DNA of 64,000 bases from Thiomargarita sp. (lineage in GTDB: Bacteria; Pseudomonadota; Gammaproteobacteria; Beggiatoales; Beggiatoaceae), in contig DYNP01000004.1 of assembly GCA_020721005.1 (NCBI GenBank), positions 126,652 to 190,651 of the forward strand. Direction: 5' to 3'. The translations under genes were made by a program, and so were the position numbers. Of this stretch, positions 12,119 through 22,442 are shown in pieces. Positions within the stretch are counted from its first letter, which is position 1; each line of letters begins with the position of its first letter. The notes beneath the pieces were generated by a model, which was not told the DNA's origin, searched no databases, and saw only the letters and a list, made by a program, of their open reading frames with translations.

Positions 12119-15100
12119 ATGACGCGTAAATTCATACTTATCCTATGTATATTGTTCAGTTTTGCCCATGTCAAACTTCATGCGCTTGGCCTCAGTCACA
12201 TTGAGGTATACTCCAAACTCAATGAACCCCTTAATGCAAAAATCAATATCTTATCGATCCCAAAGGGCGATATTAACAACATTAAAGCCTCCTTGGCCAC
12301 GACTGAAGCCTTTCGCCGCGCTGGATTGGACCGCCCAGCCATCCTCAGTGCCATCCAGTTTCAAGTACAAGCGGCTGCTGATAAGAGCAATGCCGTTGTC
12401 AAGGTGACCAGTGCTCAACCTCTTAAGGAGCCCTACTTAAATTTCTTAGTAGAAGTCACTTGGCCCAGCGGTCGTATTTTGAGAGAGTATACTGTCCTTT
12501 TGGACCCCCCTCTCTATGAAAAAAAATTGCCCGTCATCAGTCCCAAGGCTATGTCCGCTACTGAAAATCCTGATTCTCAAGTGCACAGTCTATCTAAAAC
12601 TCCCCCTATTCACCTTGCCTCTTCCTCCCCAACCACTCCAAAAACTCAGCGGGCAAATTCTCCAGCAACGACCGGATCTAAAAATACGCAATCCCCACGA
12701 GCTACCAATTCCCAACATCGAGCAATTGTGGCGGGTAAAGAGGGAACTCATCAAGTTATCCAAAATGAAACTTTGTGGCGCATTGCTCAACAAACCCTTC
12801 CGGCTGGAGTTTCAATCAATCAACACATGATCAATATTTACCGGGCTAACCAAAATGCCTTTATTAATAAAGACATGAACTTGATTCAGGCCGGGAAAGT
12901 CATTCAAATTCCCGGTTGGCAAGGGGGACCATTGCATGAACCAGTGGTGGCTCAAGCAGCCGCTGAAGAACAAATTGCCTCTGCAGAATCGGAACCAGTC
13001 CCGGCACCCAAAACTTCTGCACCTTCTAAGGGAGAAACCTCCAAAACTTTACTGTCGGCCGAACCACAAGTGGTTATTACTCCGCCAACTTCTGTAGAAA
13101 AACAATCTGGCAGTCCTGGCAGTCCCACAGGTACTGATGACAAACAGATCAAAGTTTTGAACAAACAAGTTACTGAATTGACAGAAAAAAACAGTTCCAT
13201 GGAAGCTGAGAATAGGGAACTCAGAAAGGAACTGAAAGAGACCAAGGATTTAATGGTCAAAATGAAAAAACAGATAGAAGATTTTAACAAACTCTTAGAA
13301 TTGCAAAACAAACAATTTGCTGAATTGCAACAACAGTTAAGTCAACAAAATCGAGAAATTAAGCAAGCTCATCAGGAACTTAAAGCTGCCAAGGAACAAT
13401 CGACTCAGGCAAAGATCAGTCCTCCTTCAACTCAAGTGGCTGAATCCACACCAAAAACTGAGGCTTCTCCAAAGCCGGCTGAAGTTTCTGAACCAACTCC
13501 CCCCGAAGATGAAAAGGCACCGGAAACTGAGAAAATTGCCACTGCCGACAAACCCACTGCTTCAGAAAAAACTGCTGTTCCCAGTGACTCCAGCTCACCT
13601 CCATTAACTGCTGAAAAGCCGGAAGATTCTGCAACGGTTGCCTCTGTTGAGGTTGAAAAAGAACCTGCTTTAAAAGCAGAAGGGACTGAAGAAGAGGCAC
13701 CTATAGAATTGGCGACGGACCCAAAGACAGAGACTGAAGTCCCAGTTCGTCCAGAATCTACCACAGTGGCCACTCCCCCGGCCAGCCGTCCCGAACCCAT
13801 GGTTACCGAGGAAACCGGACTGCTTAAAACTGCCGATGATATTGTGCAACAAATTCCTGGCGGTTGGATGACTGTCGGAGGTGTTGGGGGCGGTGCCATG
13901 CTGTTTTTACTGGTGGGTGGTTTTCTGAGACGTCAAAAGGGTGGTGAAGGTTCAGATAAATTGCCAGAATGGAACGAAGGGACTGTAATTTCTGAAGAGC
14001 AAATATTGGCAGAATTGGCTCGTTTGGAATCTGAAGGAAGTGGTGGTATTACCAATAAGGAAGCCGATCATGACCTGGATTCCTTAGATGATATTTCTAA
14101 GTTTATGAACAACATAGGGACCTCTGAAGTTTCTGGAGAAGTTGCTAAGGCAGATGAGGAAATTATCAACAACGCCAATGTTTACATTCTTTACGAGAGG
14201 TTTGAGGAAGCTGAAGAAATATTATTGCTTGCCATTCAGGAAGCCCCCAGAGTGGTTGAATATCGTTCAAAATTGCTTGAACTTTATTTCAATTCCAAGG
14301 AAACAAATAAATTTGAGGAACAGGCCAAACAACTATATCCTTTAGTGGAAGAGGATGGCAAAATTTGGTTAGAAGTCAAGGATTGGTGGGAACAATTATC
14401 TACCGGTAGAGAATTGGATGTTTCTGATGTCGATTCAAGCAATGCTGGCTTGTTGGCCGCAGGTATTGCGGGGGCAGCTCTAGGCGGAGGAGTGGCTGCC
14501 TTAGCTTTGGCTGGTGAAGATGAGGAAGAAACGGGAGGAAATTCTGCTCTTGCTTATTTGGATGAGCAGTCTTATGAGGAAGTTTCCTCTGAGGAATCCA
14601 CAGAATATGATCTCACAAGAGCAGAAGTTTCTGAATCCCAGGGATCCGAGCATGAAGAAAGCGGCTTAGATTTGGGTGAAAGTTTGGATCTGGGTGAGTT
14701 GGATTTGGGAATGGAAGGTTTGACTGCTCATGAAGAAGAAGCGGTTGAGTTTGATTTAAATGATTCCGATCTCGATCTGGGACTTGGAAGTGAAGAAGAA
14801 TCAGTGGATGGTGCTGATGAAGACTTGGGAATGTCTGAAGAAGGGATGGAGGACGAACTGGGTTTGGATGCCGTCCTTGGACCCGTGGAAGGAGAAGAAG
14901 ATTTGCCTGATGATTCTTCCTTGTTGGCGCCGGAAGCCGATGACAGTGAGGATGATTCCCTGTTAGGTCCTTTGGGAACTGATGATGATTTGTCTACAGG
15001 TATGGAGGAGGATTTATCCAATTCAGAATTGGGAGATGATGACGATCTGTCTTTAGACATGGACGAGGAACCTGCCCCAGCCGCCGAATCCACTGACGAT

Positions 15101-16492
15101 GAATTATCCTTAGGAGATGATGACGATTTGTCTTTGGACATGGACGAGGAACCTGCCCCAACTGCCGAATCCACTGACGATGAATTATCCTTAGGAGATG
15201 ATGACGATTTGTCTTTGGACATGGACGAGGAACCTGCCCCAACTGCCGAATCCACTGACGATGAATTATCCTTAGAAGATGATGACGATCTGTCTTTGGA
15301 CATGGACGAGGAACCTGCCCCAGCCGCCGAATCCACTGACGATGAATTATCCTTAGGAGATGATGACGATCTGTCTTTGGACATGGACGAGGAGGAACCT
15401 GCCCCAGCCGCCGAATCCACTGACGATGATTTATCCTTAGGAGATGATGACGATCTGTCTTTGGACATGGACGAGGAGGAACCTGCCCCAGCCGCCGAAT
15501 CCACTGACGATGATTTATCCTTAGGAGATGATGACGATCTGTCTTTAGACATGGACGAGGAACCTGCCCCAACTGCTGAATCCACTGACGATGATTTATC
15601 CTTAGGAGATGATGACGATCTGTCTTTGGACATGGACGAGGAACCTGCCCCAACTGCCGAATCCACCGATGATGATTTATCCTTAGGAGATGATGACGAT
15701 CTGTCTTTGGACATGGACGAGGAACCTGCCCCAACTGCCGAATCCACTGACGATGATTTATCCTTAGGAGATGATGACGATCTGTCTTTAGACATGGACG
15801 AGGAACCTGCCCCAACTGCCGAATCCACTGACGATGAATTATCCTTAGAAGATGATGACGATCTGTCTTTGGACATGGACGAGGAACCTGCCCCAACTGC
15901 CGAATCCACTGACGATGATTTATCCTTAGGAGATGATGACGATCTGTCTTTAGACATGGACGAGGAACCTGCCCCAACTGCCGAATCCACTGACGATGAT
16001 TTATCCTTGGGAGATGATGATGATCTGTCTTTGGACATGGACGAGGAACCTGCCCCAACTGCCGAATCCACTGACGATGAATTATCCTTGGGAGATGATG
16101 ACGATCTGTCTTTAGACATGGACGAGGAACCTGCCCCAACTGCCGAATCCACTGACGATGAATTATCCTTGGGAGACGATGACGATCTGTCTTTAGACAT
16201 GGATGAGGAACCTGCCTCTACAATGGAATCTGGAAATAACGACTTGCTTGATCAAATGGAAGAAGGAGATTTGAGTATGTTAGATGAAGATTTTGGGGAA
16301 CTTGGAGAAGATGATCTTAACTTGGATGAATCAATGACTGGTGAAGACATCGAAGGTAAATTTGATTTGGCCCAAATGTATGTAGACATGGATGATTATG
16401 ACAGTGCTCGGACCACCTTAGAAGAAATTATGGACGAAGGTGATCATGATCAAAAGGACAGAGCCAAACAATTGTTAAAGGAACTGGGATAA
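12119..16492 (+). CDS. fimV: FimV-like polar hub / peptidoglycan-binding protein with expanded acidic repeats
   Basis: FimV organises type IV pili, twitching and polar signalling. In order, the 1457 residues show a signal peptide (1-23), the FimV N-terminal domain (about 24-150), a LysM domain (about 210-268; HQVIQNETLWRIAQ), a coiled coil (about 340-430), a Pro/Glu/Lys-rich linker, one membrane segment (about 582-604; GWMTVGGVGGGAMLFLLVGG), a TPR-like region (about 680-775), a second hydrophobic Gly/Ala stretch (about 782-800), a very acidic region containing 15 near-identical repeats (about 972-1366), and the conserved FimV C-terminal domain (about 1406-1457; KFDLAQMYVDMDDYDSAR). FimV proteins are known for acidic cytoplasmic tails, but this near-perfect repetition is unusual. 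The gene starts at an ATG with a GGAG-type site 8 bp upstream. Confidence 0.9.
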   Translation: MTRKFILILCILFSFAHVKLHALGLSHIEVYSKLNEPLNAKINILSIPKGDINNIKASLATTEAFRRAGLDRPAILSAIQFQVQAAADKSNAVVKVTSAQPLKEPYLNFLVEVTWPSGRILREYTVLLDPPLYEKKLPVISPKAMSATENPDSQVHSLSKTPPIHLASSSPTTPKTQRANSPATTGSKNTQSPRATNSQHRAIVAGKEGTHQVIQNETLWRIAQQTLPAGVSINQHMINIYRANQNAFINKDMNLIQAGKVIQIPGWQGGPLHEPVVAQAAAEEQIASAESEPVPAPKTSAPSKGETSKTLLSAEPQVVITPPTSVEKQSGSPGSPTGTDDKQIKVLNKQVTELTEKNSSMEAENRELRKELKETKDLMVKMKKQIEDFNKLLELQNKQFAELQQQLSQQNREIKQAHQELKAAKEQSTQAKISPPSTQVAESTPKTEASPKPAEVSEPTPPEDEKAPETEKIATADKPTASEKTAVPSDSSSPPLTAEKPEDSATVASVEVEKEPALKAEGTEEEAPIELATDPKTETEVPVRPESTTVATPPASRPEPMVTEETGLLKTADDIVQQIPGGWMTVGGVGGGAMLFLLVGGFLRRQKGGEGSDKLPEWNEGTVISEEQILAELARLESEGSGGITNKEADHDLDSLDDISKFMNNIGTSEVSGEVAKADEEIINNANVYILYERFEEAEEILLLAIQEAPRVVEYRSKLLELYFNSKETNKFEEQAKQLYPLVEEDGKIWLEVKDWWEQLSTGRELDVSDVDSSNAGLLAAGIAGAALGGGVAALALAGEDEEETGGNSALAYLDEQSYEEVSSEESTEYDLTRAEVSESQGSEHEESGLDLGESLDLGELDLGMEGLTAHEEEAVEFDLNDSDLDLGLGSEEESVDGADEDLGMSEEGMEDELGLDAVLGPVEGEEDLPDDSSLLAPEADDSEDDSLLGPLGTDDDLSTGMEEDLSNSELGDDDDLSLDMDEEPAPAAESTDDELSLGDDDDLSLDMDEEPAPTAESTDDELSLGDDDDLSLDMDEEPAPTAESTDDELSLEDDDDLSLDMDEEPAPAAESTDDELSLGDDDDLSLDMDEEEPAPAAESTDDDLSLGDDDDLSLDMDEEEPAPAAESTDDDLSLGDDDDLSLDMDEEPAPTAESTDDDLSLGDDDDLSLDMDEEPAPTAESTDDDLSLGDDDDLSLDMDEEPAPTAESTDDDLSLGDDDDLSLDMDEEPAPTAESTDDELSLEDDDDLSLDMDEEPAPTAESTDDDLSLGDDDDLSLDMDEEPAPTAESTDDDLSLGDDDDLSLDMDEEPAPTAESTDDELSLGDDDDLSLDMDEEPAPTAESTDDELSLGDDDDLSLDMDEEPASTMESGNNDLLDQMEEGDLSMLDEDFGELGEDDLNLDESMTGEDIEGKFDLAQMYVDMDDYDSARTTLEEIMDEGDHDQKDRAKQLLKELG
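15032..16216 (+). repeat. 81-bp in-frame tandem repeat inside fimV (15 units)
   Basis: There are fifteen head-to-tail units encoding about 27 residues each, consensus LSLGDDDDLSLDMDEEPAP followed by TAESTDD. Two adjacent units (5 and 6) have one extra Glu codon. Variation is confined to A/T in PAP[AT]AEST, G/E in LSL[GE]DDDD, D/E in DD[DE]LS and a few silent changes. Variant types recur in blocks, as expected from recent unequal recombination or slippage. The antisense strand is stop-free here, producing spurious long Ser-rich frames. Confidence 0.95.
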
Positions 16493-18122: not shown

Positions 18123-18145
18123 TCCCAAGTGCTACTTGTTACCTC

Positions 18146-18395
18146 GTTCCCAAGTGCCACTTGGGAATGCAGTCTTGACCGCGCCGCGGTTTGTACGAAT
18201 AAAAATAGGAACAAGGGGACACAGTCGTTACCAACTCTATGAAAATCAAGCCCCCTATTTTTCAACCTACACCGTCATTAACTGGCTGCCCTTGTTTACA
18301 CACGATAACAGGGGCTGATTCTTGACTATACAGAAACTGACGAATGACTGACCGCGGCGCGGTCAAGACTGTATTCCCAAGTGGCACTTGGGAAC
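18146..18395. repeat. REPIN-like pair of 45-bp inverted repeats
   Basis: The left arm (18146-18190) and right arm (18351-18395) are reverse complements with one or two mismatches. Each contains its own palindrome, TTCCCAAGTG-CCACTTGGGAA, followed by CAGTCTTGACCGCGCCGCGGT. The 160 bp between them hold a scrap of a REP-associated-type transposase. Two inverted REP-type hairpins around a short spacer match the REPIN layout. A partial extra copy of the palindrome lies just upstream (18119-18135). Confidence 0.7.
18214..18315 (+). pseudogene. Fragment of a Y1 (REP-associated) tyrosine transposase N-terminus
   Basis: One frame reads RYQLYENQAPYFSTYTVINW then LPLFT. This resembles the beginning of REP-associated tyrosine transposases (pattern RY..YE...PYF.T.TVVNWLPLF). 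No start codon in context and no remainder of the HUH domain are present. It lies between the two inverted REP-like arms, the kind of hairpin such enzymes act on, which supports the reading. The call rests on a 25-residue match from memory. Confidence 0.45.
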
Positions 18396-18421
18396 AAGAA
18401 AACGAGAAAATTTCTTTTTTC

Positions 18422-19780
18422 TCAGAATGTTTTTTTGGTTGAGCGGGGAGAGTGGGTTCTGGGAGCAAGCGCATTGTAGTAGTCAATAATGGCTTGTTTG
18501 CCCTGTTTGACAATTTCTACGGGGGGTATTTGGAAGGGATTGCCTTCAACGTGGATTCCCTGCGTATACGACCTCTCTTTGACTTCCAAATTGAGCTGGA
18601 ACAGTGCTTTAGGAAATTGAGTGAGTTGATTGCCGTCCAAATTCAACGATTGCAACTGCTGCAATTGACCGATTTTTTTGGGTAATTCTGTGAGTTGATT
18701 CTTCTCCAAATTCAACGATTGCAACTGCTGCAATTGACCGATTTTTTTGGGTAATTCTGTGAGTTGATTCTTCTCCAAATCCAACTTTTGCAACTGCTGC
18801 AATTGAAGGATTCTTTTGGGTAACTGCGTGAGTTGATTATGGCTCAAATACAACTTTTGCAACTGCTGCAATTGAAGGATTCTTTTGGGTAACTGCGTGA
18901 GTTGATTACTACTCAAATCCAACGATTGCAACCGCTGCAATTGATCGATTTCTTTGGGTAACTGCGTGAGTTGATTACGGCTCAATCCCAACGATTGCAA
19001 CTGCTGTAATTGACCAATTTCTTTGGGTAACTGCGTGAGTTGATTACTACTCAAATCCAACGATTGCAACTGCTGCAATTGACCAATTTCTTTGGGTAAC
19101 TGCGTGAGTTGATTACTATTCAAATCCAACGATTGCAACTGCTGCAATTGACCAATTTCTTTGGGTAACTGCGTGAGTTGATTACTATTCAAATCCAATC
19201 TTTTCAACTGCTGTAATTGACCGATTTCTTTGGGTAACTGCGTGAGTTGATTCACACACAAAGTCAACGTTTGCAACTGCCGCAATTGACCGATTTCTTT
19301 GGGGAACTGCTTGAGTTGATTAGCGTTCAAATACAACCGTTGCAACTGCTGTAATTGACCGATTTCTTTGGGGAACTGCTTGAGTTGATTAACGTTCAAA
19401 TTCAACGTTTGCAACTGCTGCAATTGACCGATTTCTTTGGGTAACTGCGTCAGTCCATTTTCGCTTAAATCCAACGTTTGCAACTGCTGCAATTGACCGA
19501 TTTCTTTGGGTAACTGCGTCAGTCCATTTTCGCTTAAATCCAACGTTTGCAACTGCTGCAATTGACCGATTTCTTTGGGTAACTGCGTCAGTCCATTTTC
19601 GCTTAAATCCAACTCTTGCAATTGCTGCAATTGACAGATTTCTTTGGGGAACTCTTCTGATCCGTGCCACATCCAGTCACACAATCTCAAACCAATGACC
19701 TGCTGTTGCATATTCAGTTGATAACGGACTGAACCCTCAGTCTGTTCTTCAAGCTGTGCAATGATGTCTAAATCGCTCAT
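18422..19780 (-). CDS. Leucine-rich-repeat protein, 15 plant-type-like repeats
   Basis: The 452-residue protein has an N-terminal cap of about 52 residues (MSDLDIIAQLEEQTEGSVRY...), then fifteen 23-residue LRRs of consensus IGQLQQLQSLDLSSNQLTQL, PKE (about residues 53-397), then a capping region ending QIPPVEIVKQGKQAIIDYYN. In related bacterial LRR proteins that cap is often followed by a ROC-COR GTPase, TIR or kinase domain. Here the protein ends about 17 residues later in a basic tail, so an effector may have been lost. No signal peptide is seen, so it is probably cytoplasmic and acts in protein binding. The N-terminal MSDLDIIAQ and the leader before it recur at two antitoxin genes nearby. 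The DNA repeats (69 bp) are nearly identical in places. Confidence 0.85.
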   Translation of the reverse strand: MSDLDIIAQLEEQTEGSVRYQLNMQQQVIGLRLCDWMWHGSEEFPKEICQLQQLQELDLSENGLTQLPKEIGQLQQLQTLDLSENGLTQLPKEIGQLQQLQTLDLSENGLTQLPKEIGQLQQLQTLNLNVNQLKQFPKEIGQLQQLQRLYLNANQLKQFPKEIGQLRQLQTLTLCVNQLTQLPKEIGQLQQLKRLDLNSNQLTQLPKEIGQLQQLQSLDLNSNQLTQLPKEIGQLQQLQSLDLSSNQLTQLPKEIGQLQQLQSLGLSRNQLTQLPKEIDQLQRLQSLDLSSNQLTQLPKRILQLQQLQKLYLSHNQLTQLPKRILQLQQLQKLDLEKNQLTELPKKIGQLQQLQSLNLEKNQLTELPKKIGQLQQLQSLNLDGNQLTQFPKALFQLNLEVKERSYTQGIHVEGNPFQIPPVEIVKQGKQAIIDYYNALAPRTHSPRSTKKTF

Positions 19781-19812
19781 GGGGTATTTTCCTTTTTGTC
19801 TGAATCAGAATT
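19756..19812 (-). repeat. Shared gene leader, copy C (before the LRR gene)
   Basis: The first codons plus the upstream region of the LRR gene (plus strand TCTAAATCGCTCATGGGGTA, then TTTTCCTTTTTGTCTGAA) are nearly identical to the same region of the genes starting at 20526 and 21308. The minus-strand message reads AAGGAAAATACCCC then ATG, so the repeat supplies the ribosome binding site and the first residues of the protein. Confidence 0.75.
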
Positions 19813-19834
19813 CACAGAATTTTAAAATTTTCAG

Positions 19835-19965
19835 AATAACGGCAACGGCATGTAGAATTTTAGCACAATGTTTTAGGATTCACTCTGGAAATTCTAAAAT
19901 TCTGATTCAAATAGATCACTTACCAAACTTCCAAGTTAAACTCTTGAATCATTCCAAAATGCTTA
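19835..19965 (-). repeat. 131-bp duplicated block, intact copy (3' end of vapC)
   Basis: The block runs from AATAACGGCAACGGCATGTA to CATTCCAAAATGCTTA and includes the last 15 codons of the PIN-domain gene. It is about 85-90 percent identical by eye to 21421-21552, where the coding part is an orphan. Confidence 0.75.
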
Positions 19966-20309
19966 TCTCGTGAAACTAAAATTAATTGATATTGTTGGGT
20001 TAAAGCAGCTATCCATATATCATTTTCTGGCATTATTCTGCCTTGTTGTTGCAAGATATGTTTAAGTTTTCCGTAGTGATAAGCCGTTTCCTGATCACAA
20101 TGCAACACAGCGTTATTTGCCACAAAATATCGAATCCGCGACAAATTTTCGGTGACTCGCTGAGACTTATGCGCGCCATAGACCAATTCACCAACGCTGA
20201 TAGCAGAAATAAACACAGCAGCACATTCTTTCAAACGAGCGTGCACTTGAGTCTCTCCGGCAAACAACGCAATGATAATATTGGTATCTAATAAATAGTT
20301 ACCGTTCAT
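19920..20309 (-). CDS. vapC: VapC-type PIN-domain toxin
   Basis: The protein is a predicted Mg-dependent RNase toxin. Starting at the ATG at 20309 it has 129 residues, standard for VapC. The acidic PIN residues are visible in YLLDTNIIIALF (D8), ISVGELVYG (Glu) and PENDIWIAALTQQYQLILVS (Asp), followed by RDKHF. The start overlaps the upstream antitoxin gene by 11 bp, which supports translational coupling; the longer frame to 20339 lies inside the antitoxin. The LVSRDKHF ending is typical of the VapC group that cleaves tRNA or rRNA, but the target cannot be told from sequence. Confidence 0.9.
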   Translation of the reverse strand: MNGNYLLDTNIIIALFAGETQVHARLKECAAVFISAISVGELVYGAHKSQRVTENLSRIRYFVANNAVLHCDQETAYHYGKLKHILQQQGRIMPENDIWIAALTQQYQLILVSRDKHFGMIQEFNLEVW

Positions 20310-20526
20310 GGACTTCAACTCGACGACACTCTGCATCAATCGCTTTGCTCATCAATACCAATTCATCCTGTTCAATCAACCCTGAAAACTGAGCAAACTG
20401 CTCACCTGAAACACCAACCAAATTTTGAGGTTGTAGTTTTTGCAACTCAGCACGGATAATTTTTTGAATCATCGGTTCTAAAAAATGAAGTTTCTCATCA
20501 AGTTGGATTGTATCTAAATCGTTCAT
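20299..20526 (-). CDS. Putative antitoxin of the first VapBC pair
   Basis: This 75-residue protein (MNDLDTIQLDEKLHFLEPMI...) sits directly before vapC with an 11-bp overlap. I recognise no AbrB, RHH or Phd motif; it is helical and charged. The antitoxin role is inferred from position, size and overlap. Its N-terminus (M-N/S-DLD-I) and leader are shared with the LRR gene and with the second antitoxin. Confidence 0.65.
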   Translation of the reverse strand: MNDLDTIQLDEKLHFLEPMIQKIIRAELQKLQPQNLVGVSGEQFAQFSGLIEQDELVLMSKAIDAECRRVEVHER

Positions 20527-20634
20527 GGGGTATTTTCCTTTTTGTCTGAACTGAGATTCTCAGGATTTATTTGATTATCATGATTTTTTGAATCAAACCA
20601 ATCCTATTAATCAAAAAAATCTTGGTTCAGAAGT
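20512..20634 (-). repeat. Shared gene leader, copy A (before first antitoxin)
   Basis: About 120 bp covering the start codon, the first codons and the upstream region match 21294-21415 almost base for base, for example TCTCAGGATTTATTTGAT and CATGATTTTTTGAATCAA. The upstream half contains the short CTGAATC/GATTCAG-type words found in several leaders here. Confidence 0.8.
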
Positions 20635-21054
20635 TGTTCTTTCAATAAACCAATTCTCAACCTTGATCTCAGAAAAATCTTGAAAATCAGTAACATTACG
20701 AGTGACTAAAACTGAATCAGAGACCTTTGCAGTCGCAGCAATTTGTCCGTCCACAAACGCCGCAGATTGCCCCAATCGACTGAGCCGCGCCCGCTCTTCC
20801 CCATGCCAAATAGCAGCTTCTAGAGTATAAGGTAAAACGGTTAATGTGGAAATCAGATGTGTTACAAACCGTTCAATCTCCTGCCGTCGTTTCGATAATG
20901 GAAGACGTTGATAACCAAAGACCATTTCCTGAATCACAAGACTTGCAGTGACAATTTGATTTTCATTGATTTTAAGGTGGGCAATTACATTCTCATTTGG
21001 ACAAGGCTTCAATAATTCTGATAACACATTGGTATCTAACAAATATTTGCTCAC
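20611..21054 (-). CDS. vapC: VapC-type PIN-domain toxin (second pair)
   Basis: The 147-residue PIN-domain protein has YLLDTNVLSELLKPCPNENV, VIQEMVFGYQRLP and AAFVDGQIAATAKVSDSVLV followed by TRNVTDF. All four acidic positions of the family seem present. It starts at a GTG (21054) whose GTGA overlaps the antitoxin stop by 4 bp. The last about 15 residues (SEIKVENWFIERTTSEPRFF) run past the usual end into the shared leader DNA of copy A, which suggests that the leader's arrival changed the C-terminus. Confidence 0.9.
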   Translation of the reverse strand: MSKYLLDTNVLSELLKPCPNENVIAHLKINENQIVTASLVIQEMVFGYQRLPLSKRRQEIERFVTHLISTLTVLPYTLEAAIWHGEERARLSRLGQSAAFVDGQIAATAKVSDSVLVTRNVTDFQDFSEIKVENWFIERTTSEPRFF

Positions 21055-21308
21055 AATGGTTCAATCTCCCGTCCCACTTGACGATCTCGGACTGAGTTAA
21101 AAATTTCATCAACATCTCCAACAACTTCAAAATCAATTGTTGCTCGAAGTGATTGAACTTCTTGCCAAAAAGTTGAGGGTTGTGATTCAGTTTCTGCGTG
21201 GTTCTGTTGCAACAAAAAATCTATATATTCGTTGAGTCTAATTGTAACATTGCGGGGTAATTGATGTATTTTCTCATCAATTTGGGCAATGAGGTCTAAA
21301 TCGCTCAT
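21051..21308 (-). CDS. Antitoxin of the second VapBC pair (DUF2281-like)
   Basis: The 85-residue protein contains IDEKIHQLPRNVTIRLNEYI followed by DFLLQQ, then a linker and a C-terminal acidic tail with RDRQVGREIEPL. The central helix resembles the DUF2281/VapB-like antitoxins whose core is LP.....V.DFIDFL. It overlaps the toxin gene by 4 bp. Start and leader match copy B of the shared leader (MSDLDLIAQ). Confidence 0.75.
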   Translation of the reverse strand: MSDLDLIAQIDEKIHQLPRNVTIRLNEYIDFLLQQNHAETESQPSTFWQEVQSLRATIDFEVVGDVDEIFNSVRDRQVGREIEPL

Positions 21309-21415
21309 GGGGTGTTTTCCTTTTGTTTGAACTTGGATTCTCAGGATTTATTTGATGATCATGATTTTTTGAATCAAGCCAATCCCATTAATCAAGAAAA
21401 TTTTGGTTCAGACTT
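21294..21415 (-). repeat. Shared gene leader, copy B (before second antitoxin)
   Basis: This is the best match to copy A over about 120 bp; the first about 45 bp also match copy C. Immediately upstream the sequence continues into the block shared with 19835-19965, so this locus joins the leader directly to a duplicated vapC tail. Confidence 0.8.
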
Positions 21416-21420
21416 TCTCA

Positions 21421-21552
21421 CAATAACGGCAACGGCATGTAAAATTTTAGCACATTGTTTTGATGTTCACTCTAGAAATTCTTAAATTCTGATTCAGATA
21501 GATTACTTACCCAACTTCCAAGTTAAACTCTTGAATCATTCCAAAATGCTTA
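21421..21552 (-). pseudogene. Duplicated block with orphan 3' end of vapC
   Basis: This is the copy of 19835-19965. The stop codon at 21507-21509 and the preceding codons for a ...SIILEHFGMIQEFNLEVG-like tail correspond to the end of the PIN toxin, but nothing of the gene remains beyond 21552. There the sequence changes abruptly to transposase DNA. It is a remnant of a third toxin gene or of a segmental duplication. Confidence 0.7.
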
Positions 21553-21963: not shown

Positions 21964-22442
21964 TTACGCATTGAAAGCAGTCAGAAATTGTGGATTGAGA
22001 TAATCTTTGCTGGGAATAAAGCTATTGATGAAGGCAGTCACTTGCAGTGTGCCATTGATTGCACTTGACCATAAATAATCTTCTGCTTTGGCAACAATTT
22101 TTGCACGTACAGGATTATGTTCAACATAACGCACGCAAAACCACAGATAGGTTTCATCAAGCACACTGGAAAAAACGTCCTTGCTACAAGTGATCCGACC
22201 ACCCATACTGACGATTAACATATTGAGCATAAGGCATATGTACTGGTTTAAGTACCTGTTGCAGGCTTTGTTGTTCTTTTGGTACTGCAATCAAATGAAC
22301 GCGATTTGTCATCAGGCAATAATCCATCAACAATGTCAAGTATTGATGACGATCATCTTCTGTAAAAAAGACGTGTTCCCTATGATGACCACGCTGGACA
22401 ATGTGATGGGGAATTTGAGTGAAAATTGTACGTGCTATTCTA
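21964..22442 (-). pseudogene. IS200/REP-associated-type (Y1) transposase, degenerate
   Basis: Reading from about 22442 down, the frame gives IPHHIVQRGHHREHVFFTED, then a deletion after YLTLLMDY, then CLMTNRVHLIAVPKEQQSL. An in-frame TAG falls where a Trp is expected (SDHL-stop-QGRFFQCA), and a frameshift follows before LDETYLWFCVRYVEHNPVRA and the C-terminus NPQFLTAFNA. The conserved HxH motif is altered (RVHLIA for NHVHLI; the first His is lost) and the region before it is deleted, so the gene is dead. The open frame over 21964-22290 alone is only its C-terminal part. Confidence 0.75.

Follow-up and report, generated by a model that had tools for sequence, protein, structure and literature searches.

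Horizontal regulatory transfer, as set out in the Piggy paper (PMC5890482), is the recombinational replacement of intergenic regions, and promoter capture through in-frame gene fusion has been documented in experimental evolution (PMC4395868). Here we describe a related arrangement in Thiomargarita sp., in a 64,000-nt stretch of DNA (assembly GCA_020721005.1, contig DYNP01000004.1, positions 126,652 to 190,651 of the forward strand), the whole of which is called the window below. Within it, a leucine-rich repeat (LRR) gene and the antitoxin-like genes of two VapBC-type toxin-antitoxin (TA) modules have in common a leader, a ribosome binding site (RBS) and their first codons. We consider it probable, at about 0.7, that recombination attached VapBC modules to the front end of a Roco gene, behind which bodies were later exchanged.

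As in horizontal regulatory transfer, recombination would have put a regulatory region before a gene that is not its own. Here, however, the common part extends into coding sequence, supplies the start codon and the codons next to it, and is followed by unrelated genes. As in promoter capture, a gene would have become fused in frame with another gene's front end, whose promoter it may capture, whereas the present case is natural, recurs in several genera, involves TA modules and has only a few codons donated. The presumed donor front end and the LRR gene both belong with the Roco (LRR-Roc-COR) proteins, although the LRR gene retains the LRR half alone. The TA modules, known here from their sequence, resemble type II VapBC modules in having PIN-domain toxins encoded behind small overlapping antitoxin genes, but the antitoxin N-termini seem to have been partly replaced by Roco-derived codons. 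In marine Beggiatoaceae, probably the same bacterial family, TAACTGA direct repeats precede start codons (PMC4679880). These too are short repeats just 5′ of start codons, but their sequence is different, and the accessible part of that report does not describe repeats that are carried together with an RBS and codons. Among the matches listed, the titles and abstract beginnings of open-licence PMC articles included no leader common to Roco and antitoxin genes, and the accessible part of PMC2701414 contains nothing bearing on a shared Roco/antitoxin front end; nor is such a front end described in the accessible parts of the other articles cited here. We judge the probable Roco front end on antitoxins to be a new form of promoter or 5′-end capture.

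Results

Three genes share a leader and a start but not a body

Read 5′ to 3′ on the minus strand, on which all array features described below lie, the locus consists of a VapC1-like remnant, leader C, vapB2, vapC2, leader B, vapB1, vapC1, leader A and the LRR gene. We refer to the LRR gene (452 aa; 18422..19780, ATG at 19780) as gene A, to the gene for the antitoxin-like VapB1 (75 aa; 20299..20526, ATG at 20526) as gene B, and to the gene for VapB2 (85 aa, with a DUF2281-like N-terminal part; 21051..21308, ATG at 21308) as gene C. An earlier note on this DNA, made from the sequence alone, had claimed that these genes share upstream DNA, an RBS and first codons in front of unrelated protein bodies, and both halves of the claim proved correct.

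The RBS block AAGGAAAATACCCC, recognized in the sequence and by pattern search, precedes A (19781..19794) and B (20527..20540) exactly, and a version with one mismatch, AAGGAAAACACCCC, precedes C (21309..21322). The encoded proteins begin with MSDLDIIAQ in A, MSDLDLIAQ in C and, one codon shorter, MNDLDTIQ in B. The start reads MSDLDIIAQLEE over codons 1-12 of A (19745..19780), a segment delimited by pairwise alignments, shuffles and the starts of relatives, MNDLDTIQLDEKLH in B and MSDLDLIAQIDEKI in C. Leaders A and C align at 70.6% identity over 282 columns, from 185 nt (A) or 244 nt (C) upstream to codon 12, with gaps where their repeats differ. The corresponding values are 86.8% over 151 columns for B and C and 89.5% over 57 columns, stopping at codon 5, for A and B. 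When leader B was used to search its own genome, it matched C at E 8.2e-43 and A at 6.0e-13; leader A matched the upstream part of C at 2.9e-49, B at 8.9e-13 and the start of C at 3.1e-12. The alignment score of the first 45 coding nucleotides was reached by none of 500 shuffles in each of the three pairs. Past codon 15, in a comparison that for gene A took in only the next 255 nt, the observed scores were reached by 204, 137 and 341 of 500 shuffles; because shuffles reach them so often, the bodies of A, B and C are not alike. The serine codon AGC, used at the starts of A and C, makes up 7% of the serine codons in four open reading frames (ORFs) of the window, gene A included. As AGC is rare among these codons, the identity of the A and C starts lies at the DNA level, beyond the peptide alone. 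These data confirm that the leader, RBS and first codons are common to A, B and C far above chance.

The shared start is the usual N-terminus of Roco/LRR genes

A model of the leader plus start (R1) was run against 42 genomes of the family and gave 19 matches at E <= 1.2e-7 in six of them (eight in G020, three each in G000, G015 and G035, and one each in G014 and G019); 12 of these 19 had served to build the model. The frames behind the matches comprise nine Roco/LRR genes (one of 80 aa and one partly N), six VapB genes (one a 32-aa remnant) and four orphan stubs, and weaker matches in G001 and G039 likewise precede LRR genes. The same regulatory region therefore stands upstream of different genes: Roco genes, two types of VapB gene, and stubs. 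Across the class, the model matched 4 of 369 genomes at E <= 1e-4. Three belong to the same family; in the other, G201 (E 1.8e-5), the match lies before a gene that starts MTTDLDPAK and by eye resembles a hydrolase gene, and we regard it as a probable chance match. With the leader DNA as query, eight of the 42 genomes had matches at E <= 1e-4, three of them (G016, G023 and G026) with repeats only. Plasmids and phages gave no match to the leader, and viral contigs contained neither the exact pattern of RBS plus start nor relatives of the LRR gene.

The usual N-terminus of Roco/LRR proteins in related genera is M-x-(D/N)L(D/E)II(A/K)QLE. They begin with M-x-DL(D/E)II(A/K)QLE, or nearly so, in G000, G001, G015, G019 and G020, and with the variant MSNDLDIIIQI in G039; by genus label these are g1, g2, g9, g13 and g14, and g24 for the variant. 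Among the relatives examined with Pfam, Roc was found in the G015 and G020 genes and COR also in the G020 gene. In one example, G015:C142, a gene with LRR and Roc domains follows a leader and start whose identity to C is 90.4% over 177 columns, which take in promoter-like block, repeat and start. The first 1909 nt of G015:C142 recur without change in DYNO01000288.1, a contig of a Thiomargarita sp. metagenome-assembled genome. The same N-terminus thus occurs in related genomes, as the earlier note had suggested looking for, on Roco/LRR genes, antitoxins and orphan stubs. The idea of a free N-terminal tag did not hold, in that the supposed tag is the usual N-terminus of Roco/LRR genes.

The antitoxins behave differently. 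Excluding self matches, VapB2 has 14 relatives at E <= 0.01 in the 42 genomes. Three align from residue 1, and all three have the leader; the other 11 align from residues 7-37, and no leader was seen in the DNA inspected before them. VapB1 has six weak relatives (best E 5.4e-4), three aligning from residues 5-7 and three from residues 37-44, the latter joined to other N-terminal parts. Since the start is usual in Roco/LRR genes but missing from leaderless antitoxin relatives, the simplest reading is that Roco genes gave their front end to antitoxins. We infer this direction, and recombination as the route, from the sequences. At L154 4402-4461 (G035), a VapB1-type start breaks off after about 14 codons before a gene that by eye resembles one for a TonB receptor; it shares its array with two leader-VapB copies.

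Gene A matches LRR families strongly (Pfam LRR_14 9e-75, LRR_8 3.7e-71) and has an N-terminus like that of its Roco relatives. It is 64-66% identical to the G015 Roco protein over 334-336 aa (tblastn), and when the G015 and G020 Roco proteins were used as queries, matches in the window were confined to its LRR part; the G020 query has Roc and COR, and the G015 query is cut off inside Roc. Pfam gave no Roc or COR match in gene A, and we therefore regard it as corresponding to the LRR half, not the whole, of a Roco gene. The gene has a strict 69-nt period (23 residues) from 18538 to 19734; compared with the reference window, the 13 register-shifted 300-nt windows show 65-88% similarity. Just 3′ of it, where the Roc part would be expected, lies an inverted repeat (18135-18406) whose 56-nt arms are 91% complementary.

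In both TA pairs, the ORF coordinates place a small antitoxin gene upstream of, and overlapping, its toxin gene: vapB1 overlaps vapC1 (19920..20309; Pfam PIN 2.4e-16), and vapB2 overlaps vapC2 (20611..21054; Pfam PIN 1.9e-10). For VapC1, NCBIfam VapC models score below their cutoffs. VapB2 matches DUF2281 at E 3.1e-4 (21.7 bits, cutoff 26.5) and NCBIfam VapB at 20.7 (cutoff 60). VapB1 matched no family. ORFs of G028 and G019 that are similar to its C-terminal part precede PIN-like ORFs, as judged by eye.

Different bodies occupy one site behind the same leader

The strongest support for body exchange behind a Roco front end comes from a short metagenome contig, DYON01000271.1 (L009), which has the layout of the window with another antitoxin body at the middle site. 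Its first part consists of a VapC2-like 3′ end, a type-2 repeat (described below), RBS and start, and a 76-aa antitoxin-like ORF with a body unlike VapB1; its second part runs from a VapC-like remnant (by eye) through a promoter-like block and a further type-2 repeat with RBS and start to a complete Roco frame. The middle position is thus held by vapB1-vapC1 in the window and by the 76-aa ORF in L009. The proposal that the leader is a recombination entry point for cassette exchange gains support from this other body behind the same leader at the corresponding site.

Related arrangements were found elsewhere. G015:C246 has the order leader-VapB-VapC followed by leader-Roco; its VapB and one VapB of G035 pass the DUF2281 cutoff, and the G015 toxin examined has a PIN match in Pfam. 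Two of three orphan Roco starts in G020 precede short ORFs that by eye are antitoxin-like and begin 162 and 134 nt after the start codon of the stub. In the window itself, a VapC1 3′-end remnant of about 15 codons (21507..21552; D2 repeat, 1587 nt from the vapC1 copy) precedes leader C as vapC1 precedes leader A. The interval 19756-21415, to which the array had been assigned in the earlier note, is too short to take in this remnant or the whole of leader C, whose far end lies near 21470. At L157 and L189 (G020:C170:20000-42000), two Roco genes and two orphan Roco starts are clustered in an island together with several PIN-toxin/antitoxin-like pairs.

The leader is composite

The common DNA of the three leaders is not uniform. 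Leaders A and C have in common a promoter-like block, GTGCTAAAATTnTACATGCCGTTGCCGTTA, which is missing in B, a leader that directly follows vapC2; B and C have in common a repeat of about 90 nt (type 2) that is missing in A; and A holds a repeat of its own (type 1) instead. In A, the block (ACATTGTGCTAAAATTCTACATGCCGTTGCCGTT; 19838..19883) is part of the 138-nt repeat D2, 91% identical to the copy before C, and contains by eye an extended −10-like motif, TGCTAAAAT. Upstream of it lies an inverted-repeat arm (I4; 19884..19904) that is 90% complementary to its partner at 19815-19835, and between block and RBS lies the type-1 repeat (19796..19837), recognized by its interspersed matches across the genome. 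In C, the block occupies 21415..21470, as aligned to the G015 Roco leader. The type-2 repeats, of family D4, reach into the RBS blocks of B (20534..20631) and C (21315..21412), and the two copies are 90% identical. The last codons of vapC2 (SEPRFF) and its stop, at 20611-20631, fall inside the repeat of leader B, and L009 has a similar repeat-encoded tail.

The two repeats differ in distribution. Type 1 occurs at no fewer than 30 further places in its own genome at E <= 8e-4, with 40 of 77 candidates scored. Copies of type 2 in the own genome were found only in leaders B and C, and it has 12 matches in G015. With type 2 found here only in the array but matching 12 times in G015, a G015-like relative may have been the source from which B and C acquired it.

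The repeats raise the alternative that the leader is a miniature inverted-repeat transposable element (MITE) or a repetitive extragenic palindromic (REP)-like mobile element whose insertion in front of genes supplies them with promoter and RBS. Interspersed copies of the repeat portions are indeed present, and the leaders contain two kinds of such repeats. At 21964-22290 on the minus strand, about 0.5 kb from leader C and near the repeat-rich leaders, lies a fragment, apparently of a broken gene, that resembles the end of a REP-associated tyrosine transposase model (E 1.6e-4, 21.6 bits, cutoff 80), and MITEs are common in Thiomargarita (PMC4853749). Yet the type-1 repeat, at its many other places, is accompanied by no further RBS plus start among the 130 of 3061 model candidates scored, and of the seven places that match the RBS block with one mismatch or none, only the three array copies are followed by ATG. 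By these searches, the repeated element does not include RBS and start codons, as it would if the leader as a whole were such an element, and we regard this explanation as very unlikely.

Selected co-regulation would instead have an antitoxin bind an operator in the promoter-like block, so that promoter and start travel as a pair and Roco and TA operons come under one repressor. Type II antitoxins commonly autoregulate, and the block precedes Roco and VapB genes in G000, G015 and G035 as well as the G014 stub; related blocks are found in G014, G015 and G035. However, most of the block is missing from copy B and from one G035 copy, other Roco/LRR genes, including one in the own genome, have other leaders, and no operator was identified, nor a coding-strand promoter called by the promoter scan. 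Co-regulation of this kind appears improbable. The view that one mobile cassette brings different genes under common control holds only in part for similar reasons: the promoter-like block is missing from B, a portion of the leader belongs to an ordinary repeat found across the genome, and no promoter was called on the coding strand.

Other candidates for a function of the leader were set aside. Better folding than in shuffles was seen for leader B alone (z −3.0, against 0.92 for A and −0.33 for C), and a common RNA structure was dropped for this reason. Matches to known RNA families lay only far below gathering scores. A small conserved ORF in the promoter-like block was dropped by eye because its frames break between copies.

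The leader plus start was found in one array only of the genome that carries it

No fourth copy of leader plus start was found in the own genome by RBS pattern, leader DNA or model R1, and genome-wide spread of a mobile cassette was rejected on these grounds. The R1 run, which scored 130 of 3061 candidates, gave six matches at E <= 1, of which the three array copies were strong and the next had E 0.0146. A search there for further genes with the leader and an MSDLD start, suggested in the earlier note, accordingly found none. VapB2 has no relatives elsewhere in this genome, and a single weak VapB1 match (E 0.48), near another LRR gene, was taken as chance. A second, larger Roco-like gene begins with MTNLDIIKQLEQEIGKKL / MTNLDIIKQLEQ behind an unrelated leader.

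This distribution would fit a local tandem duplication in the own genome, with bodies replaced or diverged and no travel between genomes, as would the duplicated pieces held by the array, the VapC 3′ remnant among them. The explanation is weakened by other genera, where this leader and start precede both Roco and VapB genes, and by the repeat of leaders B and C, which was not found elsewhere in the own genome and yet has 12 matches in G015. Given that other genera carry copies on different bodies, we consider one simple local duplication unlikely, although local duplication alone could lie behind part of the array. The proposal that the leader spreads as a unit thus fares unevenly: it precedes at least three unrelated kinds of body in several genomes, but within its own genome it was found only in the array and is not seen spreading.

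Elsewhere in the window, a 1457-aa ORF (12119-16492, plus strand) contains a long array of DDDLSLDMDEEPAP-type repeats.

Discussion

We propose that the shared stretch is the 5′ end of a gene for a Roco (LRR-Roc-COR) GTPase, extending from a putative promoter block through an intergenic repeat and the RBS to the first codons, which encode M(S/T)DLDIIAQLE. VapBC modules would have recombined in frame right behind the Roco start, in one or more Roco copies, and the resulting antitoxins would begin with the Roco leader and about five to nine Roco-derived codons. Repeated copies of leader and repeats would then have allowed bodies to be duplicated, deleted and exchanged by homologous recombination behind constant front ends. 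The front end would presumably supply both transcription and translation, and the likely transcripts of the window would be P-vapB2-vapC2-vapB1-vapC1 and P-LRR.

Several observations weigh against this proposal or narrow it. Promoter activity of the block is inferred only, as the promoter scan of the leaders called no coding-strand site; it gave five sites in the region compared with 8.1 in shuffles, and weak sigma-70-like sites on the plus strand, at 19830-19858 and 21417-21445, touch the blocks of A and C. Another LRR gene of the own genome (C67) starts differently. VapB1 and VapB2 resemble each other past codon 5, which blurs the end of the Roco part. The DUF2281-type antitoxins of G000, G015, G035 and L009 could descend from one fusion, so that captures may number as few as one, plus VapB1. 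L009 and L010, both short metagenome contigs, are identical over 3076 nt and then differ upstream, so that an assembly artefact is possible; L010 also holds the whole 1909-nt G015 stretch compared, and L009 and G015 are therefore not independent lineages. The other G035 VapB has no Pfam match, and the two antitoxin-like ORFs of G020 have none at E <= 0.01. Only these two of the four orphan stubs adjoin an antitoxin-like ORF: the G014 stub has none beside it, and the remaining one of G020 is close to the end of its contig.

A tentative variant would make the Roco front end, in this bacterial family, a fixed docking site, at which TA and Roco bodies are swapped in frame by homologous recombination through the leader and repeats. 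Such a site would possibly be somewhat integron-like, although without integrase or attachment sites, for neither of which (attC or integrase) a search was run.

Movement of regulatory regions between bacterial genes is known; in the present case the shared unit includes the translation start and several codons, and it stands on TA genes. For annotation, a common start and leader can mislead homology calls, and the locus is a place to look directly for body exchange in long-read population data. If the proposed capture is true, it would account for similar N-termini in small accessory proteins that do not share descent, and for how new antitoxins could be expressed immediately upon insertion.

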